Assembly: GCA_022414725.1 (NCBI GenBank) | Contig: CM039464.1 | Coordinates: forward strand, 52,346,026 to 52,410,025 | DNA length: 64,000 nt | Direction: 5' to 3' | Origin: Microglena sp. YARC | Lineage: Eukaryota; Chlorophyta; Chlorophyceae; Chlamydomonadales; Chlamydomonadaceae | The notes under the pieces: model-generated | Told to the model about the DNA's origin: nothing | What the model saw: the letters and a program-made list of their open reading frames with translations, nothing else | Databases searched by the model: none | Shown here: in pieces, positions 3,960 to 39,424 of the stretch | Position numbering within the stretch: position 1 is the stretch's first letter | Layout of the letters: the number at the start of each line of letters is the position of its first letter | Position numbers and translations under genes: made by a program

Positions 3960-4085
3960 AACCCCACACCCGCACAGTACCCCCACTCTACCCCCCCCAA
4001 CCCCCAACCCCCCAACCCCCCCACACACACTAACTCCCCCGCCCCCCCCCCCCCTAGCCCTCCCCCCCCCCCCCCCCCCACCGCC
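3960..4085. repeat. C-rich low-complexity tract
   Basis: Runs of C interrupted by A/CA. Long open frames across it on both strands are composition artefacts. The flanks (3441-3959 and 4086-4584) show no recognisable gene. Confidence 0.85.
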
Positions 4086-4584: not shown

Positions 4585-4770
4585 TTTTCAGCTTTTCTGA
4601 GCAGCTTCTGTGCAGCTCCCTGAGCCTGCCACTGTATTCCACTCACATATTTCAGCAGTTCGGCTCTGCTGATTGTGTCAGCGTTAAGGCACACTTGGTG
4701 ACGTAAGGGTTGGCTGAATAGCTAGCTAGGGGAGCTGCCGAGATGCTGCTTCTGGTAGCTGAAAAGAAAA
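4585..4770. repeat. Dispersed repeat family B/C, solo copy
   Basis: 4585-4705 matches the terminal arm of the fold-back element at 18373-18844 (blocks 'gcagctccctgagcc', 'tatttcagca', 'gctgatt'). 4711-4770 matches, in reverse, the companion block 'ctcccctgactggctattc' found at about 18100 and 18310. It is therefore a rearranged or solo terminal piece of that family. Confidence 0.6.
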
Positions 4771-4839
4771 GCCCTGTGGATGCTGATATAAGTGTTTGTT
4801 CCAACTCGGCAGTCTCAGTCCACCAATCAACCTACCAAG

Positions 4840-5335
4840 CCATAAACAAACAAACAAAGCAGAAAATGTAAACCTAACCAGATAAAATCAAACAAACAAA
4901 GCAAGACCGAACAAGACCAAACCAAACCAAACAAAAAAAACCAAGCTATACATGGCCAAACAAAACAAATCAAAACAAGCTAAGCAAGACCAAACAAAAT
5001 GAGCCAAACAAAACATAAAAACAAGCCAAACGAAACAAAACAAAAAAATAAACGAGCTAATCAAATACCATAATAAAACCCAGAAGCATACATTAACAAG
5101 CCAAACAAATGAGTCAAACAAAACCAATCAGACAAACAAAAGGCTGCAAGAAAAAACAAAACTAAAGAAAACAAAATGGAAAGCCTGATAAAAGCATACT
5201 CAACGAAACAAGCCTACCATGAAACAAGACCAAACAAAGCAAGCCAAACAGAAACAAACAAAACCAAACACAACAAAGCAGAAAAGCTAAAAAAAAGCCA
5301 AGTAAAACCAAACCAAAATAGACGCGACCACCTCT
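4840..5335. repeat. CAAAC/CAAAG-rich low-complexity region upstream of the phosphoglycerate mutase gene
   Basis: About 500 bp dominated by degenerate CAAAC, CAAAG and CCAAA words on the plus strand, ending some 40 bp before the start codon at 5374. It occupies the expected 5' UTR/promoter position, but no TATA box or other promoter element could be identified in it. Confidence 0.8.
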
Positions 5336-5373
5336 AACATGCTGTTGTGCTACAACTGTTGTGTGCAGCAACC

Positions 5374-8300
5374 ATGGACTTCACTCTCCAGCCCCACGCC
5401 ACCATCCCCAAGTGTGATGGACCTGTCATGGTCTGCATTTTGGATGGATGGGGAGATAATGAGAACAAGGATGAGTACAACGTAAGGAGCGGTGGTTGGC
5501 GTGATTAAATTTACGAGTCAAGTAATTTAATGTTTGGATACTACTCTTTAGGGACCGGTCAATATGATATCATGATGATTAAGCTAGGGAGCGGCAATAT
5601 GATATAATAAGATATCATGTTATCAAAGTACAACAGACGGAGCGGTGGTTGGTGTGGTTAGATTTATTGATCAATTAATTTAATGTTTGTATACCACATA
5701 TAGCTAGGGAGCAGCAGTATGATATCATATGATGACATGTCATCAAAGTACAATGTAAGGAGGGGTGGTTGTTGTGATTAAATTGACTAATCAAATAATG
5801 TAATGTTTGTATACGACATATATAGCTAGGGAGCAGCAATTTGATTTCATATGATATCATGTCATCATATGATATCATATGATGCCGGCAGTCTGACTAG
5901 GCCAAAGTTACCATTTAAATACAATATTACATGATGCAGTTGATATGATATCATAATCGCGTTTGGTCAACATCATATGATATGCCGGTCCTTATATTTA
6001 AATTATTGTACTGTATCAATTATTGGACAAAACATTTTGGTCGACATCGTATTTTATGCCGGTCCTTTTATGTATAATTATTGTACTGTGTCAAAAAATT
6101 GTATGCGAAGGAGCAAGTGCTTCGTGTAGATTGTATATTTGGATACTACATGTACATGTGCACTTTGTTTGCGTGGTGTGTGTGGGGGGGGAGGGAGGTC
6201 AAGAGTGTATGTGTGTGTGTGGGGGGGGGGGGAAGGTCAGGGAGTGTATGAGTTTTGTGTGTGTGTGAGGAGGGGAGGTCAGGGGAGTGCATGTCCTATG
6301 GGGGGGGCTGCACCACAGCCAAAACCCTGATACGGGGGAAGGCCGAGAGAGCGATGGTGGTGCCCCCGAAGACGTTCCGTGCCCAGCCACCCCCATGGGA
6401 GTGCATGCCCTGGCATATTCCTGCTTTGTGCCGTGCACTTCCTCTTAGCCATCACGGATGCCCTGCGCTGTCTATTTAATTTGATTTTTTTAATGTCATG
6501 AGCTGCCATTCCCCTGGAGGAGGTTTGGGCTTGAGTCACTGAGAGTTTGTTTCCCTCATGCCATTCCTTCTCAGGCCGTTCCACTCCGCCAAGACCCCAC
6601 CATGAATGCACTGGCTGCCTTTTTAACTGTAAATTCTTGTAATGTCACTGAGCTGTCATCCCCCCTGGAGAGGTTTGGCTTGGTCCACTGATGTTAGTTT
6701 CCCGCCATGCCATTCCTGCTTCAGGCCGTGTACTCCACGAAGACCAAGTCCACCATGGATGCCCTGGCTGTCTTTTTTAATTGGAAATTTGGTTAGTCAC
6801 GAGCTGTCATCCTCCTGTAGGAGGGTGGTTTGGGGGCTGTTTCTGATAGTTTGATTTCCCGCGTGCCATTCCTGCTCAGCCGGGTGCACTTGGCCAAACT
6901 CCCCACCATGGATGCCCTGGCTGACTTTTTAAATTGTAAACTTAAATTTAAAATGTAATGTCGTAGCTGTCTCCCCCTGGAGTGGAGGGCGTGGGGCTGG
7001 TCACTGATAGTTTGATTCCCGCATGCCATTCCTGCTCAGGCCGTGCATTTGGCCAACTCCCCATCCGCCTCACATCAAAACCTCTAACCGATCCTCCTAC
7101 GGGCCCTTGGTCCCGAATTGATCATGTACATCCTACATGATCTTACAGTTTTTTCCCGCATGCCATTCCTGCTCACCGTGCGCAATTTGGCCAAAGTCCC
7201 CATCGCCTCACATCGAAACCTCGAAACCGCTCCTACGGCCCTTGGCCCGCACTTGATCATGCTACACCCTACATGAATCTTACAGTTTTTCCCGCATGCC
7301 ATTCCTGCTCAGGCCGTCCACTCCGCCAAGACCCCCACCATGGATGCCCTGGCCGCTGTCAGCAACAGGTGGCGAACAGTGAAGGCCCATGGTACCGCCG
7401 TTGGTCTGCCCAGTGATGCTGACATGGGTGAGCTACAGACATATACACTTACTGATTGGTTGTCCATCAGTTGTTGATATCATGTGTAATCAGTATTATT
7501 TTACTCATTTTACCACTGCACCAATCCCCCCACCATGGTGGTGAACAGTGATCGGTCTGCCCAGTGATGCTGACATGGGTGAGCTACTGGTATATACACT
7601 TTATTGTTTTTGTGTCATCAGTTGTTTATCAGGTGTCATCAGTATCACATTTTAGTACTGCCGCCAAGCCCCCCACCATGGATACGCTTGCTGGTGTCCC
7701 CAAAAAGGATGTGCGAACATAGGAGCCCAGTTGTACCGCTGTGGGTCTGCGAAGATGCTGGCGTGGGCGAGCTACCACTACATACACCTATTGTTATTGG
7801 TGTTATTATTGTTTTTATCAGTTGTTGTTAGGTGTCATCAGCATCACACTTTACTTCTACACACTTTACTTCTACACACTTTACTTCTACACACTTTACT
7901 TCTACACACTTTACTTCTACACACTTTACTTCTTACCCCCCACCATGCGCCCGAAAAGTGGAACGGGGAACAGTGAAGCCCCATGGCACTGCCGCTGTTT
8001 GTATTACCCAGTTGATGCTAGGCGTGGGTTTTGAGCTGGATACACTTGTGGTTATTGTGTTATCAGGTGTAATCAGTTTCACATTTGACTCGTGTTGCCA
8101 AGCCCCCCACCATGGCCACGCCTGCTGGTTGTCCCCAAACAGGTGTGCGAACAGTGATGGTCTGCCCAGTGAAATGCTGGCGTGAGTGAGCTGTATGCAC
8201 TTGTTATTATTGGTGTTATCAGTATAATCAGATATCATGTGACCAGGTTGCTCGACTGTCGGCATTGGCCTGTGACCCAGCAGCATCCCTACGCATTCCC

Positions 8301-11300
8301 AGTCATTACCCCCTGCACCCCCCGCATATGTTTACTGTACCACCCTCCACCCCTTTGACCAGGCAACCCCGAGGTTGCCACAATGCCCTGGGCTCTGGCC
8401 AGGGTAAGCGTGAACCAGGTGCTCCTCTGGTCGACATTGCCCTGGAGACCAGGAGCATCCGTACGCACACCATCCAATACCCCTGCACCTGCCCTGTACC
8501 ACATGCATCCCCCCTGCACGGGCACCTGTAACTGTACTACCCTCCATTTTGACCAGTAACTCTGAGGTTGCCACAATGCCCTGGGCTCTGGCCATTTGGA
8601 CCAGGGTGTTTGACTCCGGTCATTGCCCTGGCGACAGGAGCATCCTACACACTACCATCCATCATACCCCCTGCCTCTGCACCTGTAACTGTACCCCCCT
8701 CCATCTTTGACCAGGCAACTCTGACCTGGGCCACAATGCCCTGGGCTCTGGCCAGGTTGTGGACCAGGGCGCTCCTCTGGTCGACATTGCCCTGGAGACA
8801 GCAGCATCCATAGGAACACCATCCATACCCCTGCACCTGTACCCCTGCACCCCTCTGCACCTGTAACTGTACCACCCTCCACTTTTTACCAGGCAACTCC
8901 GAGGTTGGCCACAATGCCCTGGGCTCTGGCCAGGTGGTGGACCAGGGCGCTCGTCTGGTCGACATTGCACTGGAGACAGGAGCTATGTGGAAGGGTGATG
9001 GGTGGAAGCTGATCAGCAAGGCCTTTGAGTCCAACACCACTCACTTCATCGGTCTCCTCAGTGACGGTGGTGTGCACTCCCGCACTGACCAGCTGTTTGG
9101 CTGCATCAAGGGTGCGTGTTGTTCTGGGTCGTGGTGGTGGTGGTGGTGGTGGGAGGGACTGTGTGTTGTGTGACAAGGATTGATTGTGGGAGGCCTGTAT
9201 TGGTAGAGAGAAAAGGAGAAGCAAAATCAGAGAAAAAAACTGGGATTAAACCGAGTCAAGTACAAAAACATGCAGGTGCTGTCAAGACTGGCCCCAAGAA
9301 GATCCAAGTGCACATTCTGACTGATGGACGCGATGTCCCCCAACGGCTCATTAAGCATCAAAAAACACAGTGGCAAAAGAGAGAAAAGAGAAGCTTGAGT
9401 TCAAACTGAGATAAAAACAAACCCCCTCCAAACAAAAACATGCAGGTGCTGTCAAGACTGGAGCCAAGAAGATCCGAGTGCATATTCTGACTGATGGACG
9501 CGATGTCCCCGACGGCTCATCCAAGAAGTATGTGGCTTCGCTGGAGAAGTGCTTGGAAGAGTGCAGGGCTGAAGGCTGCGATGCCCTCATTGCCTCGGGC
9601 GGTGGTCGCATGCAGGTCACCATGGACCGTTACGAGGTTGGTATAGGGTAAGGGTGGGTCCGGGTTCCGGTGGGTCGGGGTTGGTGTGTCTGGGCCAGGG
9701 GTGGGGTGGGGTAGGGAATGCCCTCATTGCCTCAGGCGGAGCTCGCATGCAGGTGACCATTAAGCGCTGCGAGCTGAGTGTAGGGGTTTGGTGGCTCCCG
9801 CTGGGTTCGGGTTGGTGTGTCTGGGCCAGGGGTTAGGTGCGATGGGGTAGGCGATGCCTTCATTGCTTCAGCTGAAGGTCGCATGCAGGTCACCATGGAC
9901 CGTAACGAGGTGAGTGTAGGGTTGGGGTTCGGGTGGGTGGGTCCGGGTTCCGGTGGGTGGGGTTGGGTGGGCAAGGGGTGGGTTAAGCGGGGTGGGCAAG
10001 GGGTGGGGTTGTGGAGGCAAGGGGTGGTTGTGGAGGTGGGTCGGTTCCGGTGGGCAAGGGTGGGGTTGTGAGTGGTCCGGGTCCGGTGGTTGGTTGGTGG
10101 GCAAGGGGTGGTCAAGCGGGGTGGTAGGGGATGCCTTCATTGTCTCAGCGGAGGCCACGTGCCTCTATGATCACCATGGACCGTACGATGGGTGTAGGGT
10201 TAGGGGTGGGTCCGGGTTCCGGTGGGTTTGGGTTTGGCGTGTCCGGGTCAGGGTTGGTTGGTGGGTAAGGGATGCCCTCATTGCCTTCAGCGGAGCCGCA
10301 TGCAGGTGACCATTTAGCGCTACGAGCTGAGTGTAGGGGTTTGGTGGCTCCTGCTGGGTTGGGTTGGTGTGTCTGGGCCAGGGGTGGGGTGGGGTGGGGG
10401 ATGCCCTCATTGCCTCAGGCGGAGCTCGCATGCAGGTGACCATTTAGCGCTACGAGCTGAGTCTAGGGTTTGGTGGCTCCTGCTGGGTTGGTGTGTGTCT
10501 GGGCCAGGGTGGGGTGGGGTGGGGATGGCCCCTCATTGCCTCAGGCGGAGCTCGCATGCAGGTGACCATTAAGCGCTGCGAGCTGAGTGTAGGAGTTTGG
10601 TGGCACCCGCTGTGTTCGGGTTGGTGTGTCTGGGCCAGGGGTTAGGTGCGATGGGGTAGGCGATGCCTTCATTGCTTCAGCTGAAGGTCGCATGCAGGTC
10701 ACCATGGACTGTAACGAGTGAGTGTAGGGTCAGAGTGGGTCCGGTTCCGGTGGTTGGGGTTGGGTGGGCAAAGGGTGGGGTTAAGCAGGGTGGGGTAGGG
10801 GATGCCTTCATTGTCTCAGGCGGAGGCCACATGCCTCTATGATCACCATGGACCGTACGAGGTGGGTGTAGGGTTAGGGGTGGCTCCGGGTTCCAGTGGG
10901 TTTGGGTTGGGTGTGTCCGGGTCAGGGGTTGGGTGGGGTGGGGTAAGGGATGCCCTCATTGCCTCAGCGAGCTCGCATGCAGGTGACCATTTAGCGCTAC
11001 GAGCTGAGTGTAGGGGTTTGGTGGCTCCTGCTGGGTTGGGTTGGTGTGTCTGGGCCAGGGGTGGGGTGGGGTAGGGGATGCCCTCATTGCCTCAGGCGGA
11101 GCTCGCATGCAGGTGACCATGGACGGTTACGAGTTGAGTGTAGGGGTGGGGTGGCTCCGGCTGGGTTGGGGTTGGTGTGTCTGGGCCAGGGTGGGGTGGC
11201 GTAGGGGATGCCTCATTGCCTCAGCGGAGCTCGCATGCAGGTGACCATTAAGCGCTGCGAGCTGAGTGAAGGGGTTGGGTGGCTCCCGCTGGGTTCGGTT

Positions 11301-13846
11301 GTGTGTCTGGCCAGGGTTAGGTGCCGATAGGGTAGGCAATGCCTTCATTGCTTCAGCTGAAGGTCGCATGCAGGTCACCATGGACTGTAACGAGGTGAGT
11401 TTAGGGTCAGAGGTGGTCCGGGTTCCGGTGGTTGGGTTGGGTGGGCAAGGGGTGGGGTTAAGCAGGTGGCGGTAGGATGCCTTCATTGTCTCAGGCGAGG
11501 CCACAAGTCTCTATGATCACCATGGACCGTACGAGGTGGGTGTAGGGTTAGGGGTGCCTCCGGGTTCTGGTGGGTTTGGGTTGGGTGTGTCCGGGTCAGG
11601 GGTTGGGTGGGGTGGGGTAGGGGATGCCCTCATTGCCTCAGGCGGAGCTCGCATGCAGGTGACCATTTAGCGCCACGAGCTGAGTGTAGGGGTTGGGTGG
11701 CTCCCGCTGGGTTCGGGTTGGTGTGTCTGGGCCAGGGGGGGTGCGTAGGGATGCCCTCATTGCCTCAGCCGGAAGTCGCATGCAGGTGACCATGGACGGT
11801 TACGAGTTGAGTGTAGGGGTGGGGTGGCTCCGGCTGGGTTCGGGTTTGTGTGTCTGGGCCAGGGGTGGGGTGGCGTAGGGGATGCCCTCATTGCCTCAGG
11901 CGGAGCTCGCAAGCAGGTGGCCATTTAGCGCCCTGAGCTGAGTGTAGGGGTTGGGTGGCTCCCGCTGGGTTCGGGTTGGTGTGTCTGGGCCAGGGGTGGG
12001 GTGGCGTAGGGGATGCCTTCATTGCCTCAGCCGGAGCTCGCATGCAGGTGGCCATTTAGCGCTACGAGCTGAGTGTAGGGTGGGGTGCTCCCGCTGGGTT
12101 CGGGTTGGTGTGTCTGGGCCAGGGTGGTGGCGTAGGGGATGCCTTCATTGCCTCAGCCGGAGCTCGCATGCAGGTCACCATGGACCGTTACGAGGTGAGT
12201 GTAGGGTTAGGGGTGGGTCCGGGTTCCGGTAGGTTTGGGTTGGGTGGGTCTGGGTCAGGAGTGGGGTGGGTGGGGGCTGAAGCTGCAATTGCTCTTGTTG
12301 CCACAGGCGGAGGTCGCATGCAGGTCACCATGGACGGACGGTTACGAGTTGGGGTCAGGGGTGTGGGTGGGAGGCTTCCAGTGAGTCCCTCGTGGCCTGA
12401 GAGTTACACACTGATACGAGATCCCGCCACACTTGTTAACCCCAACATGAACGCACACACCCTCATGCACACACATGCTCCAGACATATACACACATGCA
12501 CACACACACACATATGCTCCTAACTCATACACACATGCACACACACATATGCGCGCACACTTACACACGTACACAGTCATGCACACACACACATAAGCAC
12601 AAATGCACACAAGCACACACAAAACGAACACACACCTTTTCCAACTGATCATCTGCAGGCCGACTGGGACATCGTCAAGAAGGGATGGTATGCCCATGTC
12701 TTGGGCGAGGCCCCCAACACCTTCAAGGACGCTGGCACTGCTGTCGCAACCCTCAGGGTGCGTCCAAAACCAGGATTTTATATTACACATTTTTATCAGT
12801 ATTATCACCTTGTAAATAGAACAAACATTTTATCAATATGAATAATTTTATCTCGGAAGTTTATCAATATTATCACATTTTTTGAATACAAAAGTATTTA
12901 AAACCTTCCAGACCCAGGATTTTCTTATATATGGCATTTTTATCATTTTGACCAATATTAACTCATTTTAAAAATATTAATCAATATTTGACACTTACAT
13001 CAATTTGATCAGATCTGATCAGTCTCATCACCTTTTAATATTAAAAACATTATCAATATCAAAATTAAGAATTTTATCTAGAAATTCACCAATATTGTCA
13101 CCTTTTTTAATAAGAAAAAGTATTTTAAACACCTTCTAAGACGCTGGCACTGCTGTTGCGACCCTCAGGGTGAGTCCAGACCCAGGATTTTCATATTACG
13201 CATTTTTATTTATTTGATAACTTTTTATTATACCAGCACTTTCATGAATGTACATAAGCTCATCACGGACGTTTATCAATATTATCACATTTATAATAAA
13301 TAAAGCATTTGCCATGTTTTAATTAATTTGAACAATATTAAACTTATTAACAGTTTTTAATATTAAAAATACATTTGGCATTTTATCAATTTGATCAGAT
13401 TTGATCAATGTTATCACTTCTTTTTATTAAAAGCATTGTTAACAAAATTAGCAGTCTAATCTCTAAGTTGATCAATTTGTCGATCTGTATTTAGCATATT
13501 TGGCCATTATTTTAATAAACAATAATCACTATTTTGATCACTATTTGAATCAATATTTTACTCCGTATTGAGCTTTTTGATCAATATTGTACTCAATTTT
13601 TGAATTCACATTGAGCTTTTTTCAAACTTTGCAGGGCTCTGAGGACAAGCCTGTGTCTGACCAGAACCTGGAACCCTTTGTGATAGCGGGTGAGGACGGC
13701 AAGCCTGTGGGCACTGTTGAGGATGGCGACGCTGTGGTGCTGTTCAACTTCCGTTCTGATCGTGTGATCCAGATGAGCAAGGCCTTTGAGTATGAGGACT
13801 TCAGCTACTTCGACCGCAAGCGCTTCCCTAAGGTGTGTGTGTTTGG

Positions 13847-13878
<32 letters not shown>

Positions 13879-16800
13879 CGGTGGTTGGTTTGGGGAGAGG
13901 GGTGACTGTGTTATCCAGATGAGCAAGGCTTTTGAGTATGAGGACTTCAGCTTCTTCGACCGCAAGCGCTTCCCTAAGGTGTGTGTGGTGTGTGTGTGTG
14001 GTGGTGTAGTGGTGTGTGTGGGGGGTGGTGTGTGTGGGGGGGGGGGGGAAGGGGGTAAGGTCCATGGTCAGTGTGTGGTGGTGGCGGCGACGCCGTGGTG
14101 CTGTCCAACTTCCGCGCTGACTGTGTGATCCAGATGAGCAAGGCCTTTGAGTTTGAGGATTTCAGCTTCTTGGACCGCAAGCAATTTCCCAAGGTGTGTG
14201 GTGACAAAATGACACTCAAGTAGTCAAGTACCCTCAACCAGTCCCCCCCTCCATCCCCCTCCAACCACCACAACCCACTCCCCTACCCCCCAGACCCACT
14301 TTTTTGGCATGATGCAATATGACCGAGACCTCAAGCTGCCCGCCAACTACCTCTTCACACCTCCCACCCCCTCCACACTCCACACTCCACCTCCCTCCAT
14401 CCACCCCCCTACCCCCCAGACCCACTTCTTTGGCATGATGCAATATGACGGAGACCTCAAGCTGCCCGCCAACTACCTCTTCACACCTCCCACCCTCTCC
14501 ACCCTCCACACCCCACCCCCTCCACCCACCCTCCACCCACCCCCCTTCCCCCCAGGCCCACTTTGTTGGCATGATGCAATACGACAGAGACCTCAAGCTG
14601 CCCGCAAACTACCTTGTCTCATCCCCCACCCTCTCCACCCTCCACACCCCACCCACCCTCCACCCACCCCCTACCCCCCAGACCCACTTCGTTGGCATGA
14701 TGCATTACGATGGAGACCTCAAGCTGCCCGCCAATCAACCAACCAACCAACCAACCAAGCTGCCCGCCAATCAACTACTCAACCAAGCAACCAACCAAGC
14801 TGCCTGCCTATCAACCAACCAACCAACCAAGCTGCCTGCCTATCAAGCAACCAACCAAACAAGCTGCCCGCCAATCAACCACTCAACCAACCAACCAACC
14901 AAGCTGCCTGCCAATCAACCACTCAACCAAGCAACCAACCAAGCTGCCTGCCTATCAAGCAACCAACCAACCAACCAACCAAGCTGCCCGCCAATAAACC
15001 ACTCAACCAACCAACCAACCAAGCTGCCCGCCAATCAACCACTCAACTAACCAACCAAGCTACCCGCCAATCAACCACTCAACCAACCAACCATGCTACC
15101 CGCCAATCAACCACTCAACCAACCAACCAAGCTGCCCGCCAATTAACCACTCAACCAACCTACCAACCAACCAAGCTGCCCGCCTATCAACCACTCAACC
15201 AACCAACCAACCCTGAAAGCATGCAGAAATGATCCTCAAGTACATAACCCTCCACCAGCACACAACCTGACCGTCCCACCCTCCTTCACCTACCACCCAC
15301 CACACCCCTCCACTCCACCCTCCACCCACCCCCCTGCCCCCCAGACCCACTTTGTTGGCATGATGCAATACAACGGAGACCTCAAGCTGCCCGTCCACTA
15401 CCTCGTCACACCTCCCACCCCCTCCACCCTTCACACCCCACACCCCTCCACCCTTCATTCCACCCGCCCCACTGCCCCCAGACCCACTTCTTTGGTATGA
15501 TGCAATACGACGGAGACCTCAAGCTGCCCGCCAACCACCATAAAGGCGAACATAAATAGACTACGAAAGCATTCAGAAATGACCCTCAAGTACATTACCC
15601 TCAACCAGCACACAACCTGACTGTTCCACCCTCCACCCCCTGCCCCCAGACCCACTTTGTTGGCCACCCCCCACCCCCTCCACTCCAGCCTCCACCACCC
15701 CCCACCCCCTCCACTCCACCCTCCACCCACCCCCCACCCCCTCTACCCCACCCTCCACCTTCCTCCCTCCACACCCCACCCTCCGCCCTCCACACCCCCT
15801 TCCCCCTTGACCCACTTTGTTGGCATGATGCAATATGACCTCAAGCTGCCCGTCCACTACCTCGTCACACCTCCCACCCCCTCAACCCTCCACCTTCCTT
15901 CCTCCACGCCCCACCCCCCTCCACCCACCCCCCTACCCCCCAGACCCACTTAGTTGGCATGATGTAATACGACGGAGACCTCAAGCTGCCCGTCCACTAC
16001 CTCGTCACTCCTCCCTCCCCCTCAACCCTCCACCTTCCTCCCTCCACACCCCACCCCCCTCCACCCACCCCCCTACCCCCCAGACCCACTTAGTTGGCAT
16101 GATGTAATACGACGGAGACCTCAAGCTGCCCGTCCACTACCTCGTCACACCTCCCACCCCCTCAACCCTCCACCTTCCTCCCTCCACACCCACCCCCTCC
16201 ACCCACCCCCCTACCCCCCAGACCCACTTAGTTGGCATGATGTAATACGACGGAGACCTCAAGCTGCCCGTCCACTACCTCGTCACACCTCCCACCCCTC
16301 CACCCCCCTGCACCCTTCACTCTACCCGCCCCCCTACCCCCCAGACCCACTTCGTTGGCATGATGCAATACGACGGAGACCTCAAGCTGCCCGCCAACTA
16401 CCTGGTCACACCTCCTGCCATATTGAACGTGTCCGGAGAGTTCCTCACCAAGAACGGCATCAGCACCTTTGCCTGCTCCGAAACTCAGAAGTTTGGCCAC
16501 ATCACCTTCTTCTGGAACGGAAACCGCTCAGGTTACTTCGACAACCAGTTGGAGACTTACCTGGAGGTGTGTAACCCTGGGTGGGTCGTATTTGGGTCTG
16601 TGTTATTTGGGTTTGGGTTTGTGGGTTAGGGTGTGGTGGGGTAGGATGTGGGGGAGATTTGCCTTGAGGTTTCAAACCCTGGGTGATTTATATGTGAGGT
16701 TTGTGTGGGGGATTTTTGGGGGGGTTTGTGGGTGACGCCAAGCTGGAGACTTACCTCGAGTTGTGTAACCTTGGGTGGTTTGGGTTTGTGGGTTCGGGTG

Positions 16801-19800
16801 GGGTGGTGTGTGGGGGAGATTTGCATTGAGGTGTGTAACCCTGGGTGGTTTGTATTTGGTCTGTGGGGTTGTGTGTGGTGTGGGGGGGGGGGGGGGGGGG
16901 GGATTGCCTTGAGGTTTCAAACCCTGGGTGATTTGTATTTGGGTCTGTGGGTGGGGGTGTGTGTGTGTGTGGGGGGAGGGGGGGGGGGGGGGGGGGAGAC
17001 TTACCTTCAACCCCTGGGTGATTTGTTTTGGGGTCTGTGCGGGAATTTGTTTTGGGGTTTGTGGGTGATGCCAAGCTGGAGACTTACCTGGAGGTATGTA
17101 ACCCCGGGTGGTTAGTATTGGGGTTCTTAGGTTAGGGTGGGGTGGGGTGTGGGGGAGATTTGCATTGAGGTGTGTAACCCTGGGTGGTTTATACTTGGGG
17201 TTTGTGTGGGGTGGGGGGTGGAGGGGAGATTTGCTTTCAAACCCTGGTGATCTGCATTGGGGTCTGTGCGGGAATTTGTTTTGGGGTTTGTGGGTGACGC
17301 CAAGCTGGAGACTTACCTGGAGGTCTCTAACCCTGGGTGGTTAATACTTCGGGTTTGTGTGGGTGGGTGGAGTGGGATTTGTTTTGGGGTTTGTGGGTGA
17401 CTCCAAGCTCGAGACTTATCTTGAGGTATCTAACAATGTGTGGTTTATATGTGTGTGTGTGCCACCCTCCCACCATTACCACCCTACCCCTCCCAGATTC
17501 CCTCACCCTCCCACAACCCTCACTTATTCCCTCACCCTACCCACCACCCCCACCCTACCCCTCCCACCACCCTACCCCTCCCAGATTCCCTCGGACAAGA
17601 TCCAGTTCAATGACAAGCCCGACACGAAGGCTCATTCCATCCCCCCTAACTTACCCACCACCCCTCACCCACCAGCACCAACATCGCCGCCTCCCCCGCC
17701 CCACCACCACCACCCTCACCCTCCCACCACCCCTACCCTCTTACCCCTCCCACCACCACCACCACCCTCACCCTCCCACCACCCTACCCCTCCCAGATTC
17801 CCTCGGACAAGGTCCAGTTCAACGAGAAGCCCGACATGAAGGCCCGTGAGATCTGCGAAGCGTCCAAGGAGGCCCTGAAGAGCGGCAAGTTCAAGATGGT
17901 TCGAGTCAACTTCGCCAACCCCGATATGGTTGGCCACACCGGTGATATTGAGGCCACCATCAGGGCTTGTGAAGTAGTAGACACTTGTGTCAAGGAGCTC
18001 GTGGATATGGTCAATTCATTGAACGGAAGGTGAGCTGTCAGTTTCGGAGGGTTCAGTTTTTTCTTTTCAGCTATGAGCAGCAGCTTCTAGGCAGCTCCCC
18101 TGACTGGCTATTCTGGCAACCCGGATGTGGTTGGCCACACCGGTGATCTGGAGGCAACCATCACGGGCTGCGAAGTAGTAGACACTTGTGTGAAGGAGCT
18201 CGTGGATATGGTCTATTCATTGAACGGAAGGTGAGCTGTTAGTTTGTTGGTTTCGGAGGGTGCACTTTTTTCAGCTATGAGCAGCAGCTTCTAGGCAGCT
18301 CCCCTGACTGGCTATTCGGCCAAAGCTGGCACAACCTTGAGCAACTTGATGCAGGCATGATCAGTTGTCCATAAGTGCTGAAATAGTTCAGTGCAGCCAA
18401 GTGGCCGCCTCAGGGAGCTGCCTAGAAGCTGAGATGAAAAGTCGAAAAGACCAGTCCTATGCAGCGTCGCAAGCGACGCGGAAATTGGTGGAGTGTGTTG
18501 GCAACAGAACGAAAGGTGGCAACAATGGTGTTGACCGAAGCCAGTGAATTATGAGACAGTTGGCTGACATGTCAGGCTTCAATTTTTCGGTCGGTCGGAC
18601 GCACAGACGAGCATCGGGGTTACCCTGAGAGCTCCCAGCCAGCCAGAAGTGGGGGCTCCGCCAAACAACCTGGGAGGGGGTGGGAGGGGGTTGAATCCCT
18701 CAGACCCTCAATGGGTCTTCATTACGAATATGGGCACAAATAACCACCCATATGCATAGGACTTGCCTTTTTGACTTTTCATCTCAGCTTCTAGGCAGCT
18801 CCCTGAGCCGGCCACTGGGCTGCACTGATCTATTTCAGCACTTCTGGATAGCTGATTATGACAGCTAATCATGACAGCATCAAGCCAACTGGCGGTGGAT
18901 CAGTGCGGTCACGGTCTTTGGTACGTATATGGGCACAAATAACCACCCCAAGCCAACTGGCATTCTACCAGGGCGGTCACGGTCTTTGTCGTAATATTTA
19001 ATGTATATCTCTCCCGCCAGGTTCCTTGTGTCATGTAAAGATGTAATAATGAATATGTATCATACCCAGGAGGAGCCCGGGCCTCTAAAATGTCAGTAAG
19101 GCTGTTTGATTTTTTCTGAGAATGGATGTGTAATCGCATGTTTCATGGTGATATTTGAAGTTACTTTTCAGGTCATTCTGAGCACCTCATTTTTTGGGGG
19201 GGGGGGGGGCAGCCCTCCTCAGTTTTTTAAGCAGGGGGGGGGAGGGGGAGTGATTTTTTTTCTCCTCCCAATCATACATCGTATTTAATGTCTATCTCTC
19301 CCGCACAGGTTCCTTGTGCCATCCGACTGTGGAAAAGCAGACAACATGGCCTAGCGCGACATGAAGGGCAAGTGACCCGCCCCCCACACACACCCCACCC
19401 CACCCCTCTCAGGTTCCTTGTGTCATCCAACCACGGAAACGCAGACGACATGGTCCAGCGTGACAAGAAGGGCAAGTGACCACCACCCCTCACCCCACTC
19501 CACCCCTCACCCCTCCCAGGTTCCTTGTGTCATCCGACCACGGAAACGCAGACGACATGGTCCAGCGTGACAAGAAGGGCAAGGCCATCATGGGAGAGAA
19601 CGGAAAGCCCCTGGCCCTGACCTCCCACACTCTGGCCCCAGTGCCTGTAGCTATTGGAGGTGCTGGTCTGCCAGACACCGTCACCTTCAGGTGCGCTGTA
19701 GTATGTGTCGCTCTGTTTTGTTTTGAGTATGTAGTCTAGATAAGCCCATCATGGGAGAGAACGGAAAGCCCCTGGCCCTGACCTCCCACACACTGGCCCC

Positions 19801-20418
19801 AGTGCCTGTAACCATCGGGGGTTCTGGTATGCCATACACCATACACCATTACCTTCAGGTGCGCTGTAGTATGTGTCGCTCTGTTTTGTTTTGAGTATGT
19901 AGTCTAGGTAAGCCCCTCACAGGAGAGAATGGAAACCCCTGGCCCTGACCTCTCACACTCTGGCCCCAGTGCATATCCCTGTAACCCTTGCTTTGACCCA
20001 CATAGTTGAATTATGCTACCCCTGTCGACCTCAAAACAAACCTGACGCTCAAAGAAACAAATTGACCAACTGATGATGTTCAACGTAGGGATTATATGTC
20101 CTATGGTGGTCAGCTTGGGGAGGAGGGTTGATAAAATATTTAGGATGAGCAAGGTCTAAAGCTTTCCCTCTTACCCTTGCTTTGACCCACATAGTTGAAC
20201 CATGCTACCCCTGTCGACTACCACCACAAATGCACCTCAACCCACCTCACCCAGCTCATCCCACCCAATCTCACCCACCCCATCACCCAAAGTAACAAAC
20301 TGATGGTGTTCAACGCAGGGATGATATGCCCAATGCTGGATTGGCGAACATCACAGCCACCGCCTTGTCTCTTCTGGGATTCGAGCCCCCCTCTTTCTAC
20401 GAGGCAGCTTTGATCTAA
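5374..20418 (+). CDS. 2,3-bisphosphoglycerate-independent phosphoglycerate mutase (ten exons)
   Basis: Interconverts 3- and 2-phosphoglycerate in glycolysis and gluconeogenesis as a metal-dependent enzyme of the alkaline phosphatase superfamily. Exons: 5374-5481, 7313-7427, 8893-9111, 9446-9636, 12659-12757, 13635-13832, 16345-16566, 17797-18029, 19520-19690 and 20319-20418. All have GT-AG borders and the phases join to exactly 551 codons plus TAA, close to the plant-type enzyme length. Visible motifs: LDGWG (metal-binding Asp24), GNSEVGHNALGSG with nucleophile Ser77, SDGGVHSR, LTDGRD, NFRSDR, NPDMVGHTGD (425-434) and SDHGNADDM (from 467) with metal ligands Asp468 and His469. The C-terminus is GFEPPSFYEAALI. 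The start (gcaaccATGg) precedes the family's usual N-terminus with no transit peptide, so a cytosolic location is likely. Where exons exist in several copies I chose the copy that keeps frame and family sequence. The introns are crowded with decayed copies of exon edges. Confidence 0.96.
5482..5900 (+). repeat. Exon 1 donor-edge duplications plus dispersed family D, intron 1
   Basis: The junction 'gagtacaac|gtaaggagcgg' at 5473-5492 recurs with changes near 5627 and 5747, each followed by the same intron sequence ('ggtggttgg', then an AT-rich block). The copies are 120-150 bp apart. The distal part ('tagggagcggcaatatgat', 'gatgccggcagtctgacta') matches the repeats at 29655-29890 in another gene's intron, so a dispersed element appears to be included in the duplicated unit. 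Confidence 0.75.
6180..6310. repeat. GT/G-rich microsatellite in intron 1
   Basis: Runs of GTGTGTG and long G tracts. Open frames here are compositional artefacts. The rest of 5900-6540 holds AT-rich 'gatatcata' sequence and an unrecognised stretch. Confidence 0.8.
6540..7312 (+). repeat. Exon 2 acceptor-edge duplications (intron 1)
   Basis: The block 'gccattcctgctcag|gccgt', continuing into the first codons of exon 2 (A-V-H-S-A-K-T-P-T-M-D-A-L), occurs near 6571, 6721, 6876, 7038 and 7170 before the functional acceptor at 7311/7312. Spacing is roughly 130-160 bp. Each upstream copy is decayed, with substitutions or indels in the coding part. Confidence 0.85.
7428..8230 (+). repeat. Exon 2 donor-edge duplications (intron 2) and a 15-bp minisatellite
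   Basis: Copies of the end of exon 2 ('cccagtgatgctgacatgg|gtgagct') appear at about 7540-7580, 7675-7775, 7945-8035 and 8107-8190, progressively degraded. Between them, 7848-7932 holds six perfect or near-perfect copies of a 15-bp unit (acacactttacttct). Confidence 0.82.
8255..8892 (+). repeat. Exon 3 acceptor-edge duplications (intron 2)
   Basis: The block 'gaccaggcaactccgaggtt' followed by 'gccacaatgccctgggctc' (encoding the catalytic-serine region GNSEVGHNALGSG) recurs near 8358, 8553, 8709 and finally in the functional exon 3 at 8893. Intervening sequence is C-rich ('cccctgcacctgtaactg'). Confidence 0.85.
9268..9360 (+). repeat. Exon 4 acceptor-edge duplication (intron 3)
   Basis: The sequence 'acatgcag|gtgctgtcaag' and about 70 further bases of exon 4 occur once here before the functional copy at 9446. 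This copy has an altered 'ccccaac' in place of 'ccccgac' and diverges after the RDVP codons. Confidence 0.88.
9586..12345 (+). repeat. Exon 4 donor-edge tandem array, about 20 copies (intron 4)
   Basis: A unit of about 125-145 bp holds the last 50 or so bases of exon 4 (coding ALIASGGGRMQVTMDRYE) followed by the start of intron 4 ('gtgagtgtaggg' and G/T-rich sequence). Copies centre near 9609 (functional), 9746, 9882, 10150, 10300, 10430, 10554, 10690, 10838, 10976, 11106, 11236, 11370, 11510, 11651, 11778, 11909, 12040, 12167 and 12317. Subtypes ('tttagcgctacgag', 'cgtaacgag', 'ctctatgatcacc') recur in a fixed order, so a higher-order repeat exists. Confidence 0.92.
12420..12630 (+). repeat. 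CA-rich microsatellite before exon 5
   Basis: ACACAC/ACATAC dinucleotide-type repeats fill the end of intron 4. No exon-edge copies are seen at this acceptor. Confidence 0.85.
12720..13185 (+). repeat. Exon 5 donor-edge duplication in AT-rich intron 5
   Basis: The end of exon 5 ('gacgctggcactgctgt', then 'ccctcag|ggtg') and the following 'cagacccaggatttt' recur at about 13133-13185, with a shorter piece near 12908. The unit is about 400 bp and includes 'ttatcaatattatcac'-type AT-rich sequence, which continues to 13620 in the repeated second half. Confidence 0.8.
13845..14205 (+). repeat. Exon 6 donor-edge duplications (intron 6) with G tracts
   Basis: After the functional exon 6 end at 13832, the sequence encoding IQMSKAFEYEDFSFFDRKRFPK plus 'gtgtgtg' recurs at about 13913-13985 and again at about 14098-14200, the latter with L for F and Q for R substitutions. 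The copies are separated by long G homopolymers and GT repeats. Confidence 0.88.
14282..16344 (+). repeat. Exon 7 acceptor-edge tandem array, about 11 extra copies (intron 6)
   Basis: The block 'cccccag|acccactt' continuing into codons for HFVGMMQYDGDLKLPANYL recurs near 14291, 14417, 14553, 14680, 15343, 15479, 15646, 15811, 15943, 16083 and 16220 before the functional exon at 16345. Spacers are CCACC-rich. Several copies keep an intact AG and open frame, so cryptic splicing is conceivable. The array is interrupted by an AACC-rich expansion at 14730-15215. Confidence 0.92.
14730..15215 (+). repeat. AACC-type minisatellite derived from exon 7 sequence
   Basis: Repeats of 'caagctgcccgccaatcaac' alternating with AACC runs. 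The 'aagctgcccgccaa' core is the exon 7 codons for KLPAN, so this is a secondary expansion of one exon-edge copy. The apparent Gln/Pro/Asn-rich open frames across it are artefacts. Confidence 0.88.
16567..17440 (+). repeat. Exon 7 donor-edge duplications (intron 7)
   Basis: The block 'gagacttacctggag|gtgtg' plus 'taaccctgggtgg' recurs near 16743, 17078, 17306 and 17408, within GT/G-rich intron sequence that repeats 'gggagatttg' and 'tttgggtctgtg' motifs. Long G tracts lie at 16879-16900 and 16972-16997. Confidence 0.85.
17455..17796 (+). repeat. Exon 8 acceptor-edge duplications (intron 7)
   Basis: 'cctcccag|attccctc' occurs near 17496 and 17580. The second copy continues about 50 bp into exon 8 (IPSDKIQFNDKPDTKA) before diverging. 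The functional copy begins at 17797. The spacers are CCCACCACC-rich. Confidence 0.87.
18119..18330 (+). repeat. Exon 8 donor-edge duplication (intron 8)
   Basis: About 110 bp of exon 8 (from NPDMVGHTGD to SLNG) plus the donor and the following 'gtgagctg' intron are duplicated at about 18119-18240, with several substitutions (I to L, R to G, N to Y). No acceptor precedes the copy. Both copies are followed by a family B/C block ('gcagcagcttctaggcagct'). Confidence 0.9.
18373..18844. mobile_element. Fold-back (MITE-like) element with ~91-bp terminal inverted repeats, in intron 8
   Basis: Arms 18373-18463 and 18753-18844 are reverse complements over about 91 bp with around six mismatches. Weaker similarity extends further outwards to about 18343. 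The interior has no credible transposase frame and includes a perfect 7+7 palindrome (gcgtcgcaagcgacgc) near 18464. The same interior start recurs at the right edge of the window (63952-64000), and solo arms lie at about 4585. It is a non-autonomous element; the autonomous partner is not in view. Confidence 0.8.
18995..19519 (+). repeat. Exon 9 acceptor-edge duplications (intron 8)
   Basis: The start of exon 9, '(c)ag|gttccttgtgtcatc', occurs near 19018, 19307 and 19411 before the functional copy at 19520. The 19307 copy has an in-frame TAG and the 19411 copy stops after KKGK, so both are non-functional. A G-rich tract lies at 19195-19250. Confidence 0.88.
19691..20318 (+). repeat. Exon 9 donor-edge and exon 10 acceptor-edge duplications (intron 9)
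   Basis: About 120 bp of exon 9 (MGENGKPLALTSHTLAPVPV) with its donor and 'gtgcgctgtagtatgtg' recur at 19745-19915, and partly again at 19915-19985. Further on, 'ttgctttgacccacatag' and 'actgatgatgttcaacgtag' near 19987-20110 are a decayed copy of the exon 10 acceptor region at 20175-20330. Confidence 0.87.
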
Positions 20419-22486: not shown

Positions 22487-26474
<3,988 letters not shown>

Positions 26475-27449
26475 CTTGCAGACGGTTGTTAAAGAATGGA
26501 AAGCTAGGGGATCGACGCTTCTACGGCTATTTCAAGGTAGGAGGTCTTCAGTGCGGGTGGCAAGAGAGCTTTCAAGTTATGTGGTTAGGGAAGGGTCCAC
26601 TGAGGATTTATACCGAGGCTAGGCCCTAACCTATCGAGTCACAGAAGTGTACTGCCACTCCCAGGACCTTCTCGCTACTTTCCTTCCCGCTCCCCTCAAG
26701 ACCAGCACCGAGGCCAGATCACCTAGGAGCCCTGTAGTAGCCCGTAAACTCTGTGGCCACGCCTCGGGTCATGTTTTCACGGTCGAACGCAAGGCTGCGA
26801 ATATCGATTGCATTGATCGTCTAGTTCGAGATCGTTGTAAGCTTTTTCTGCCTGAAACAGGATGCCTAACATGAATCCTCTGGGGAGAGCAATACTGCCC
26901 ACCGTCTTCCACGCCTTCGCCTGCCCCTGTCTTCCTAAATTCTCGAGGCGTGAATGCCAACCGATTCAGCTCATTAATGCCTCGAATCCTTTCCGGGTAT
27001 TGGCAATGAAGCTCTAAGTGACATCAAAGCATAACCGAGCTGACAGTCACTGAATTACTACCCGTTTCTTTTCGTACGATGTTTGCCCCCCCAGTCAGAT
27101 ACAATAATTTCCTTGCCTCCCATGCTTCCCCAACCTCGTCCAAATACTTCAGTTACAGGAAAAGCCTCTAACTCTACGATGGCTGGAGACTTTGAGAGGT
27201 GGCTCTGGCCATTATTTTATCCCCGGGGTGATGGGTGCCTCTAGGAGATCGAGGCGTTTCCAGGTTTGCGACAAATATGAAAGTTCGACTTCAATTCCAA
27301 GTTGTCGTAACCTCCTCCTGTCTTGTCAGCGCTTTCCCTGAACCAGTGACTCTCACTCCAATCCCATCCATTCGAATGCTGCTTCGATTGTGATCGATGA
27401 CTCTCAATGGCGAGCTTCTCCGATCGGAGAAGACAGGCGGACGCGGACG

Positions 27450-35869: not shown

Positions 35870-36715
35870 AAGGCGAGGCGCTCCTCCTGCCAGGCCGTAC
35901 CCCACTGGATAAAAAAGAAGTGTATACACCTGTTTCGGCGTGCCCACGGTGGTAAGGGAGAATCCCACAATCAAGTGACACTTCCCCACGTGGATCGTGT
36001 ACCTTCCTCCTCTGCCCCCTCCTGCCAGGCCATACCGCACTGGAGGTAGTTGTAAACCTGTTTTAGAATTACCCTGGTGGGGCTTGCCTAGGGGTAGAAG
36101 AAACTGACAAACACTAGGCGCTGGCCTACATGCTACTCCTCTTCCCCCTCCTCCTCCTGCCAGGCCATACCACTCTGGAAGTAGTTATACATCTGTTTTA
36201 GCTTACCCCTGGTGGGGCTTGCCTAGGGGTAGAAGGAACTGACTCAGGCAAGGCGCTGGCCTACATGCTTCTCTTCTTCCCCCTCCTCCTCCTGCCAGGC
36301 CATACCCCTCTGAAAATAGTTGTACACCTGTTTTAGCATGCCCCTGGTGGGGCTTGCCTGGAGATGGAAGGAACTGACAAACGCTAGGCGCTGGCCTACA
36401 TGCTACTCCTCTTCCCCCTCCTCCTCCTGCCAGGCCATACCCCACTTGAAGAAGTTGAACACCTGTGTCAGTATACCCCTGGTGGACGTGCCTGGGGGTA
36501 GAAGGAACTGACGAAGGCGAGGTGCTGGCGAACATGCTACTCCTCTGCCGCCCTCAGCTTTCCTTGCCCAACCATGACAGGAGGGGATAAAACATCGGCG
36601 CTCCTCCTGTCGGGCCATACTACACTGGAAGTAGTAGTACACCTGTTTTAGTATGCCTGATGGGGTATGCCTGGGGGTAGAAGGAACTGACAAAGGCGAG
36701 GCGCTGGCGTACATG
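35870..36715 (-). repeat. Tandem copies of the terminal exon of the Rit1-like gene, about 6 extra
   Basis: A unit of about 135-150 bp, read on the minus strand, encodes VRQRLAFVSSFYPQARPTRG plus MLKQVYNYFQ and the WQEEEGEEE-stop tail. It repeats downstream of the true stop at 36716, with copies near 36600, 36440, 36310, 36170, 36030 and 35890. The substitutions are mild and many copies keep recognisable codons. Confidence 0.9.
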
Positions 36716-38556
36716 CTACTCCTCTTCCCCCTCCTCCTCCTGCCAGGCCATACCACTCTGAAAATAGTTGTACACCTGTTTTAGCATGCCCCTGGTGGGG
36801 CGTGCCTGGGGGTAGAAGGAACTGACGAAGGCAAGGCGCTGGCGAACGTTCTGCTTCGTCACCACATCCAGGTTCAAATCCTCCAGGTCAGTGAACAGAT
36901 TGCGCATACGGGGGGCCTGCCAGCTGCTGGGCTGGGCCCCCCCTGTACTGCTGGACTCCACCTCGGTGGGACTGAAGCAGGCCAGCAGGAGGGCTACAGC
37001 TACACAAACACAAGTATCAGTGCCCTCTTGGTCGTGGATCAGGATCTTGTGGCCGAGGCTGAGGTGGTGGGAAAGGAAGGCCAGGGCGGGGGCTAGGCCC
37101 TCCATCAAGGCAGTACGCTGGTGCTTGGAGTCCTTTAGGTACAGCCACATGTAGGGGCCGTACACCTCCGGCTCTGGCTCCGAGACCGCTCCGGGCCCAC
37201 CAGCGGGGGTATCGATGGAGGGAGGGAATGAGGAGCTGCCCTGAAGCTGCTTTCCACCTTCCTCCCCCCCCTTGCTGGTGAATAGCTGGCGCTTGGCCTC
37301 CCTAGGGTGGAAGCGGCTCTGAGGTCGGTTCAACACGTTTTGGGTTTCGGAGCAGAGCCCCTGCTCTCTGGTAGCATTCCTCCCCCCAACCCTCGCTCCC
37401 CCCACTGCTGCCTCCACCAGGCCCCCCCCCCACCGCCATTGGGCAGCCCCCCTTGGGGTGGTTGGGATGGTTGGCTGCCAACTGACACATCTGCCAGTCC
37501 ATTAGATCCCCTCGGTGACTGCTCACCCTCCAAGGAGGTTCCATCACTTGGGCGGGTCCGTCCCGCCAGGCCCCCCACCGACCCAACGGTACTATTGCGG
37601 CTGCTGCGGCTGACAGGACAGAAGCCCCCCTTCCCGAAGGACGCGGCAGTACAGGCTCCTGGAACCATGGCCCCCCCCAACTCAGGCATAGACTCTTGGG
37701 CGGCTTTTTCAGCTACAGCCGTAGCTACAGCCGAAGCCGTGCTGATGCTGGCACCAGCGACGATGCAGTGGTAGAAGGCATCACTGCGTCTGGAGGAAAC
37801 ACGGTTCATGACGGCCTCCTTGCGAGCACAGTAGTCAGCCTGTGTTTAGAGGCGGTGTGTGTTTAGGGTTGGTGGGTGTTTAGGGTTGGTGGGTGTTTAG
37901 GATCGGTGCATGGATGGTGTAGGTGTGTGGGTGTGGTGTAGGTGCGTGGAGGTGAGTGGGTTGGGAGGTGTGTGTGTGGGGAGGGTGGGGGAACTTGCGA
38001 GCACAGTAGTCAGCATGTATGTGTGTGTGGGGGAGGTCTGTGTGGGGGGAGGTCTGTGTGGGGGGAGGTATGTATGTGGGGTAGGTGTGGGTATGTTTAG
38101 GGTCAGTGGGCGTGTGGGGTGTAGGATGGGTGGGAGGGTAGGTGTGTGTGTGGGTGGTCGTGTGCATGGGGTGTGTGGGTGTGGGGGCAAATAAAAAAAA
38201 ATCTGAGCATAGGTTTTAGAAAAAGCCCCCCCCCCTCCCATGTGTATATATATATATGGTAGATATGTGTGTGTATATATATGTACATATATCAAATGTG
38301 GTACGAAGGCTACAACCAGCTACGGCCAACATTACGTACCTGGGCCATCTGCATCTTGATCGCGTCGATCTCCAACTTGGTGCACTCCAGGGGTATACAT
38401 ATGTAATCCATGGGCGCTGGATCCACGTAATGTGCATCGAAGGTGAACGTTGGGGCAGGAGAGAGGGCAGGGCAATCGAGTTGCAGGTCCTCGGAAACTA
38501 AGCCCAGGGGAAAGGTTACATTGGGGTCCAGCCGGAAAAGCTCAGCGGAGTCTAGT
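36716..38556 (-). CDS. Rit1-like initiator-tRNA ribosylphosphate transferase, C-terminal part (partial gene)
   Basis: Exon 38556-38340 (72 codons, LDSAELFRLDPN to MAQ|gtacgt) joins in phase 0 to 37839 (cag|GCTGAC) and runs to a TAG at 36718-36716. The last ~230 residues match the C-terminal phosphatase-like domain of Rit1, which adds a 2'-O-ribosyl phosphate to initiator tRNA A64: a KILIHDQEGTDTCVCVAVAL loop in place of an active HCxxGxDRS loop, then VTKQNVRQRLAFVSSF, ARPTRG and MLKQVYNYF. Family assignment of the N-terminal exons is not evident from sequence. Length 37839-36716 is one base short of a multiple of three, and the frame changes at a C/G homopolymer near 37418-37435. I read that as a one-base assembly error, though a small intron is possible. 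An upstream exon at 53749-53846 fits in phase. Confidence 0.7.
37855..38230 (-). repeat. GT-rich minisatellite with an exon-edge copy in an intron of the Rit1-like gene
   Basis: The intron between 38339 and 37840 is filled with 'gtgtgtggg'-type repeats. At 37990-38012 it holds a copy of the following exon's first bases (tgcgagcacagtagtcagc), a short acceptor-edge duplication. Confidence 0.75.
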
Positions 38557-38589
38557 CTGTAAATTGGGTTGGGTGAGGTGGATGAAGCA

Positions 38590-39400
38590 GGGTGGGGGCG
38601 AAGGTGAAGGTGGGGGCGGGGGAGAGGGCAGGGCAATCAAGTTGCAGGTCTTCGGAAACTAAGCCCAGGGGAAAGGTTACATTGGGGTCCAGTCAGTAAA
38701 GCTCATCGGAGTCGAGTCTGTAAGTTGGGTTGGGTGAGTTTGGGGTGAGTTTGGGTGAGTTTGGGCAGGTTGGGGTGAGTTGGGGTTCGGTGAGTTGAGA
38801 TGAGTTAGGGTGAGGTTGGGTGTGTCAGGGTGAGTTGAGTTTGGGTGAGTTTGGGTGAGGTGGGTGAGGCGGGTGAGGCGGGGTGGGGGCGAAGGTGAAG
38901 GTGGGGGCGGGGGAGAGGGCAGGGCAATCGAGTTGCAGGTCCTCGGAAACTAAGCCCAGGGGAAAGGTTACATTGGGGTCGAGCCGGAAAAGCTCATCGG
39001 AGTCGAGTCTGTAAATTGGGTTGGGTGAGGTTGGGTTTGGGCTGGGCTGGGCTGGGCTGGGTGTGTTTGGGTGAGTTTTGGGTGAGTTTGGGGTGAGGTT
39101 TGGGTGTGTTTGGGTGAGTTTGGGTGAGGTGGGGTGAGTTTTGGGTGTGTTCGGGTGAGGTTGGGCAGGTTGGGGTGAGTTGGGGTGAGTTGCGGTTGAG
39201 TGAGTTGGGGTGAGGTTGACGTGAGTTGGGTGAGTTGGGGTGAGGTTGGCGTGAGTTGGGGTGAGTTGGGGTGAGTTGGGGTGAGTTGGGGTGAGTTGGG
39301 GTGAGGTGAGGTTGGGTGGATTGGGTGAGATAAGGCGGGGTGAGTTTGGTGAGTTTGGGTGAGTTTGGGTGAGTTTGGGTTGGGTCAAGTTAGCCCATAC
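38590..39400 (-). repeat. Duplicated 5' edge of the Rit1-like exon plus GGGTGAGTT-rich repeats
   Basis: The acceptor and about 120 bp of the exon at 38340-38556 (LDSDELFRLDPNVTFPLGL and onward) recur at about 38590-38735 and 38887-39030. Between and beyond them are degenerate 'ttgggtgagtttgggtgag' repeats up to 39400. The 39030 copy keeps the acceptor intact. Confidence 0.88.
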
Positions 39401-39424
39401 CATACCTACTTAGCTTTAGGTGCC

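Follow-up and report, generated by a model that had tools for sequence, protein, structure and literature searches.

Tandem copies of exon–intron junctions at most splice edges of a phosphoglycerate mutase gene, and in other genes, of the green alga Microglena sp. YARC

In the gene for cofactor-independent phosphoglycerate mutase (iPGM) of Microglena sp. YARC, 15 of the 18 splice edges are accompanied by direct copies that span the exon–intron junction, 64 copies in total by repeated local alignment. Such edge copies are not peculiar to this gene, and are present in most of the genes that we sampled elsewhere in the genome. We consider it probable that they reflect local tandem duplication on a rampant scale, with selection on the coding sequence as the filter and with tolerance where exon-defined splicing ignores incomplete copies of an exon edge.

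The stretch of DNA analysed here, the window, is 64,000 nt long (C3:52346026-52410025) and comes from a genome of 568 Mb in 2390 contigs. The ten exons of a GT-AG model on the + strand splice into a single uninterrupted frame of 551 aa that requires none of the copies, in agreement with the original prediction, made from the letters of this stretch, that one functional junction always remains. Residues 2-551 align with the solved iPGM structure 3nvl, and the closest protein matches are green algal, at no more than 81% identity. In a tree of 73 rows the window iPGM stands beside P0001 and P0002 (support 100/100), within a larger set that includes Volvox, Chlamydomonas and Dunaliella rows; P0002 (EukProt) is, by eye, the same reading as a paralog on contig C1. 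No tRNAs or Rfam families were found within the 64-kb window.

Two separate methods agree on the extent of the copying. In the local alignment, a copy was counted as spanning if it held at least 6 exon and at least 4 intron bases, and a stricter threshold also gave 15 of 18 edges. A 60-mer scan found direct copies within 4 kb at 15 of 18 edges, with none at the E3 donor and the E5 and E6 acceptors, exactly the exceptions that had been named beforehand. The same scan returned no copies at the start or stop codon of the gene, and shuffled sequence gave a copy in 0 of 8575 windows. Copy number runs from 1 (at five edges) to 19 (E4 donor), matching the predicted range of one to about nineteen. The copies do combine exon and intron bases as claimed, with the correction that those of the E1 donor carry merely about 8 exon bases each.

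BLAST of exons against introns on both strands places the copies on the sense strand, in adjacent introns and nearly all anchored at the exon edge. Two short E3 matches in intron 6 depart from the adjacent-intron rule; exon 2 pieces inside intron 2, and short pieces of exon 7 copies that seeded a minisatellite, are not edge-anchored. No full-length exon copy occurs among these matches. Inverted copies were seen in 0 of 74 edge windows and 27 of 1254 intron windows of the gene. Direct copies within 4 kb cover 441 of 609 non-low-complexity intron 60-mers, versus 2 of 74 in the introns of the window's polyubiquitin gene, which upholds the view that duplication accounts for the bloated iPGM introns.

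The duplicated units vary widely in where they break, their exon share spanning 0.07-0.68. Acceptor and donor units share an approximate end point within the exon at exon 9 alone, probably by chance. The splice dinucleotide is kept in 21 of 26 acceptor copies (AG) and 24 of 38 donor copies (GT), that is, in 45 of 64 overall. The claim that copies decay inside the intron stands for some small arrays, such as the E9 acceptor (identity 98% near the edge, 84% far from it), and fails for large ones: in the E4 donor array, one of the farthest copies ranks among the most similar. Serial budding from the functional edge, with the nearest copies youngest, likewise fits small arrays and was rejected because it fails at the E4 donor and the E7 acceptor.

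We note three local features of these edges. By eye, the E8 donor event has a short imperfect match, TTCGCCAA / TTCGGCCAA, at both ends, a single example. The functional exon 4 donor (9637-9646) reads GTTGGTATAG and looks weaker than GTGAGTGTAG, the form found in several copies and in the C3 paralog. A 30-G run adjoins the exon 6 donor at 13848-13877.

Table 1. Positions in the window of the iPGM gene, its edge arrays and the other genes with mapped edges
Feature	Position	Strand	Basis or remark
iPGM gene, whole	5374..20418	+	551-aa frame, 3nvl alignment
iPGM CDS exons 1-5	5374-5481, 7313-7427, 8893-9111, 9446-9636, 12659-12757	+	GT-AG model
iPGM CDS exons 6-10	13635-13832, 16345-16566, 17797-18029, 19520-19690, 20319-20418	+	GT-AG model
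Exon 1 donor, 2 copies, ~8 exon nt each	5474..5867	+	alignment
Exon 2 acceptor array, 4-5 copies, exon part at most 44 nt	6417..7317	+	donor-side limit by eye
Exon 2 donor array, 4 copies, at most 108 exon nt in one alignment, without the acceptor	7400..8238	+	
Exon 3 acceptor array, 3 copies, exon part to nt 91	8241..8983	+	
Exon 4 acceptor, 1 copy, exon nt 1-75	9262..9520	+	
Exon 4 donor array, 19 copies, unit ~131 bp, exon nt 133/135 to 191	9578..12371	+	
Exon 5 donor, 1 copy, ~371 bp from source	12716..13481	+	
Exon 6 donor, 2 copies	13725..14200	+	
Exon 7 acceptor array, 11-12 copies, at most exon nt 1-71	14231..16415	+	
Secondary 36-40 bp minisatellite within exon 7 acceptor array	14720-15212	+	
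Exon 7 donor array, 4-8 copies, at most 20 exon nt	16547..17453	+	
Exon 8 acceptor, 1-2 copies, exon nt 1-47	17462..17843	+	
Exon 8 donor, 1 copy, unit 201 bp, 114 exon nt	17916..18323	+	
Exon 9 acceptor, 2 copies, exon nt 1-64	18995..19583	+	
Exon 9 donor, 1-2 copies, unit 161 bp, ~110 exon nt	19578..19972	+	
Exon 10 acceptor, 1 copy, ~21 exon nt	20058..20339	+	
Polyubiquitin gene, 8 introns, 16 edges	22494..26475	-	internal negative case
RIT1-like gene, CDS-end copies, six matches 3' of stop, unit 135 bp	35881..36718	-	
RIT1-like gene, acceptor copies at two exons	37840..39031	-	

Genome matches reveal two further iPGM genes, a head-to-head neighbour on C3 (C3nb) and the C1 paralog. The exons of C3nb differ from those of the window gene by 11/2/30 substitutions at the three codon positions (885 sites), and the two genes have breakpoints in common at the E3 acceptor (exon base 91), the E4 donor (133/135), the E8 acceptor (47) and the E8 donor (120). 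In exon BLAST, three C3nb copies of the E3 acceptor end at base 91 and three E8 acceptor matches end at 47, and its three E4 donor copies start at bases 133, 121 and 135; those of the window gene start at 133 or 135, with one at 121. Copy numbers differ widely: 3 in C3nb versus 17-19 in the window gene at the E4 donor, and 9 BLAST matches versus 1 at the E4 acceptor. C3nb also carries arrays where the window gene has bare edges (3 copies at the E3 donor, 9 at the E6 acceptor), the E5 acceptor is bare in both, and intron 3 measures 7129 nt in C3nb versus 334 nt in the window gene. From the shared breakpoints and differing copy numbers it follows that some duplications predate the gene duplication, that others seem to be later, and that arrays have grown or shrunk. 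In C3nb (L029/L009), exon 7 and the last 53 nt of exon 6 are unmatched in about 9 kb of N-free sequence between exons 6 and 8, and this gene copy may be broken or misassembled.

The C1 paralog (L012+L013, reverse complement 3499-17913) shows, in protein-level matches only, extra copies upstream of E2 (3), E3 (1), E4 (2), the second part of E6 (1), E8 (2) and E9 (2), extra copies downstream of E3 (3) and E7 (1), one copy of the small split exon 7a, and one last-exon copy beyond the stop codon. By eye, and relative to the window gene, its intron 2 is offset by 7 nt and its intron 3 by 24 nt, intron 4 is missing and a split follows residue 14 of exon 7; these differences look like intron sliding, gain or loss between the paralogs.

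Elsewhere in the window, a RIT1-like gene (assigned by Pfam PF04179) carries two acceptor copies, at 39031-38890 and 38738-38599, for its exon starting at 38556, and one weak copy with just 4 intron nt, at 38018-37994, for the exon starting at 37839. Three of its six CDS-end copies align across the stop codon. The polyubiquitin gene has edge copies at 0 of 16 edges. One of its repeats contains a TAG (22799-22810, - strand), past which ubiquitin-like sequence continues; the TAG may be a new stop codon and the units behind it may be in decay. One of its introns holds, by eye, a long inverted repeat (25480-25640). Long CCCACA and CATTA simple repeats lie at 29977-30355 and 30736-30898. Only 0-6% of 60-mers in the window's intergenic DNA have a direct copy, so the process is patchy. 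A hotspot specific to the iPGM gene, for which these duplication-poor flanks would speak, was rejected: tandem-rich DNA is common in other stretches of the genome, the fraction of 60-mers with a direct copy being 0.02-1.0 (median 0.36) in 15 evenly spaced stretches of C1 and C3.

These 15 stretches supplied 17 codon-bias candidates in 8 loci. Four candidates were dropped, three in L017, which has long open frames, few signs of introns and a virus-like look (one stretch of it is without a Pfam match), and one in L019 that was itself a copy; the remaining 13, in 7 loci, were examined. Edge copies occur in 4 of the 7 loci and 5 of the 13 segments, namely at a spermidine synthase (L019), an ABC1 kinase (L014), a gene that is SMC-like by eye and has no Pfam match (L025) and an unnamed gene (L023). 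They were not found at EF3 (L018, 5 segments), a kinase (L022, 2) or an unnamed gene (L021, 1). For a second sample, four stretches with chaperonin (CCT) genes were picked by size, before their sequence was seen, from the gene-like clusters that 64 PF00118 exon matches form. All four genes have copies, which occur at 17 of 25 HMM exons when one match that is itself a copy is omitted. These non-iPGM genes were not selected for repeats; they are few in number, and their edges are HMM limits.

Are junctions themselves the target? A junction-directed process, in which splice sites or structures near them (donor G-runs, acceptor C-runs, R-loops) provoke the duplications, should raise coverage at the edge. 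We profiled coverage in the three iPGM genes, taken as the share of 40-mers that have a direct copy no more than 4 kb away. The polyubiquitin gene was set aside, its exons being repeats in their own right; coverage in its introns is 0-12% at distances over 10 nt from the edge. In the three genes, with several C1 edges off by 1-6 nt, exon 6b counted as intron and the C3nb exon 6 end not a proven splice edge, coverage is 0.70 within 10 nt of the edge (124/176), 0.58 at 10-80 nt and 0.69 at 200-350 nt intronward, and falls with exon depth through 0.63, 0.53, 0.37 and 0.18; a shuffled control gave 9 of 3582. Chaperonin genes show no peak either, at 0.57-0.58 for 50-200 nt into the intron, 0.40 at the HMM limit and 0.21 deep in the exon. 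In this sample of genes, the result comes close to no enrichment of junctions over intron positions, which, seen genome-wide, the original prediction had named as its refutation.

Some observations nevertheless lean towards the junction or otherwise depart from random placement. The window iPGM has 15 edges with arrays versus 3-4 purely intronic arrays. Random placement expects 46% of arrays at edges if ancestral intron lengths are set by eye (excess p ~0.001-0.003), and 71% if introns had polyubiquitin lengths (p ~0.16-0.28). Edge coverage is somewhat above that of the next 70 nt, introns 4 and 6 have a strong strand skew, and the exon share of units departs marginally from uniform (KS p=0.05). 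Random placement of the observed unit lengths predicts a relative exon fall of 0.90, 0.79, 0.62 and 0.42, whereas 0.90, 0.75, 0.53 and 0.25 was observed; the extra steepness deep in the exon is what exon length, together with losing the opposite splice site, would produce.

Given the roughly level profile together with the array-count excess, we therefore set strong targeting aside as unlikely and leave room for a mild junction preference. The widely spread exon shares, the duplicated stop-codon edge of the RIT1-like gene and the bare polyubiquitin edges also speak against junction-directed duplication, which we regard as unlikely. Of the predicted recurrent process at splice junctions, recurrent tandem duplication stands, and action specific to the junction is not supported. 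For random duplication, in sum, count the roughly level intron coverage, its fall with exon depth and the copies that cross a stop codon; the edge-array excess, the higher coverage at the edge itself and the over-steep exon fall count against it.

The divergence of the copies bears on whether they have a function and on whether they are real. With some copy anchors approximate, the exon parts differ from the functional exon by 0.103 substitutions and 0.015 gaps per site, and the intron parts by 0.136 substitutions and 0.064 gaps. With each column counted once, functional exon and copy majority disagree at 19/9/31 of 319/320/319 columns by codon position (p=0.0013), and this third-position excess indicates that the functional exon went on evolving under coding constraint after copying. 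Among copies of at least 40 nt, 11 of 45 have in-register stops and 15 of 45 have indels, so that at least those copies are non-coding. Variation among the copies is 35/19/32 by codon position, fewest at second positions (p=0.04), which counts against pure neutral decay. Low variation at second positions could arise if the functional exon seeded copies more than once, at different times.

The paucity of second-position variation, together with the many intact splice dinucleotides, could also suggest that selection maintains the copies as functional pseudo-exons or as decoy splice sites, for use in alternative splicing or in the control of splicing. However, the stops and indels, the lack of a full-length exon among the BLAST matches and the widely different copy numbers of close paralogs make this very improbable.

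The arrays could further be false tandem expansions of a noisy long-read assembly, and the assembly is indeed not clean. A 103-bp tandem array of about 13 kb (39400-52625) adjoins a 1000-N gap in the window, and its units differ mostly by indels: against one unit, gaps are 0.01-0.04 before 42.4 kb and 0.08-0.13 beyond, with mismatches at 0.01-0.05 throughout, a pattern as in unpolished long reads. Its position is upstream of the exons of the RIT1-like gene, and it may itself be one of the introns of that gene. The exon parts of the edge copies, by contrast, differ mostly by substitutions and bear a codon-position signature, their breakpoints recur in a separately placed paralog, and four chaperonin loci, on contigs C1, C2, C3 and C5, show the same pattern. 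We therefore find that the edge copies are true duplications and not read noise, and an assembly artefact is hardly credible. Mobile elements or introners bearing exon-like ends, which a large, repeat-rich genome might well house in its introns, are most improbable on the evidence of the genes examined here, every array being built from direct, local copies of its own gene's exon edge, with inverted copies as scarce as noted above and at no more than 0.013 of chaperonin positions.

The preferred reading, tandem duplication filtered by selection, would proceed in several steps: (I) local tandem duplications of roughly 100-400 bp would arise frequently, presumably by slippage or template switching, with breakpoints independent of splice sites; (II) those within exons would be removed by purifying selection on the coding sequence, the likely filter; (III) those within introns, or straddling an edge without the exon's other splice site, would leave the outermost edge intact and be tolerated; (IV) the first edge duplication would act as the seed of a satellite, whose copy number could rise or fall by slippage or unequal exchange as its copies decay; and (V) introns would grow out of copies of exon edges. 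Exon definition, the pairing of splice sites across a short exon, may be why intact decoy sites go ignored. More tentatively, edge-spanning duplication could in this lineage be the main genome-wide engine of intron growth, its spare edges feeding intron shifts and new introns, and exon-defined splicing alone keeping genes readable; this broader proposal is possible, and we do not lean towards it. The intron offsets, loss and split seen by eye in the C1 paralog are cited here for a pool of spare edges that feeds intron shifts.

The growth, sliding and origin of introns are an old question with few cases caught in the act. If our sample is representative, a single genome would offer very many edge-spanning duplications of varied age, plus paralogs, and rates, breakpoints and the choice of splice site among near-identical sites would be directly measurable. 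The decoy copies of one gene that retain a splice dinucleotide amount to a natural experiment on exon definition in an alga. Such genes also carry a warning for annotation, in that gene finders and short reads may mishandle them.

Intronic minisatellites and VNTRs are arrays of changing copy number. The arrays described here resemble them in this respect, and differ in having units of ~100-370 bp, seeded by an exon edge, with a separate origin at most edges. Searches of the open-licence literature turned up no description of edge copies at the majority of a gene's junctions or genome-wide. Among the BLAST matches here no copy is a whole exon, and many copies carry stops or indels, unlike mutually exclusive duplicated exons, in which an entire exon is duplicated with both splice sites and an open frame.

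Excerpts of PMC3443670 count tandem duplication among the accepted ways in which introns are gained. In the excerpted accounts of the AGGT model (Hellsten 2011), a purely exonic AGGT sequence is duplicated and the extra copy is spliced out (PMC3443670, PMC4974935); the likeness is that splicing removes an extra tandem copy and makes it tolerable, but the units here straddle existing edges and are not an exonic segment that supplies both splice sites. Similarly, in the excerpts of PMC10809524, introns of the polyubiquitin gene UBC lie in coding tandem repeats with dual-specific splice sites, and splicing renders repeat expansion harmless, as here; the UBC unit is coding, whereas each unit here is part exon and part intron. 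Closest in form is a potato gene in which, as excerpted from PMC4974935, one edge-spanning duplication took the 3' part of an intron and the 5' part of the next exon. The units here have the same make-up of exon part and adjoining intron part. However, the potato duplication is a single event in a single gene and made a new intron that is used, whereas here many edges, donor and acceptor alike, are affected and the frame of the gene is intact without the copies. As in the internal gene duplications of the same excerpts (PMC4974935, PMC3443670), the copies are direct, nearby duplicates of segments of the same gene, with consequences for its introns; unlike those, they concern most edges of a gene, reach arrays of 19 and are absorbed into existing introns. 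What is new relative to known internal gene duplication is thus its extent, which is remarkable.
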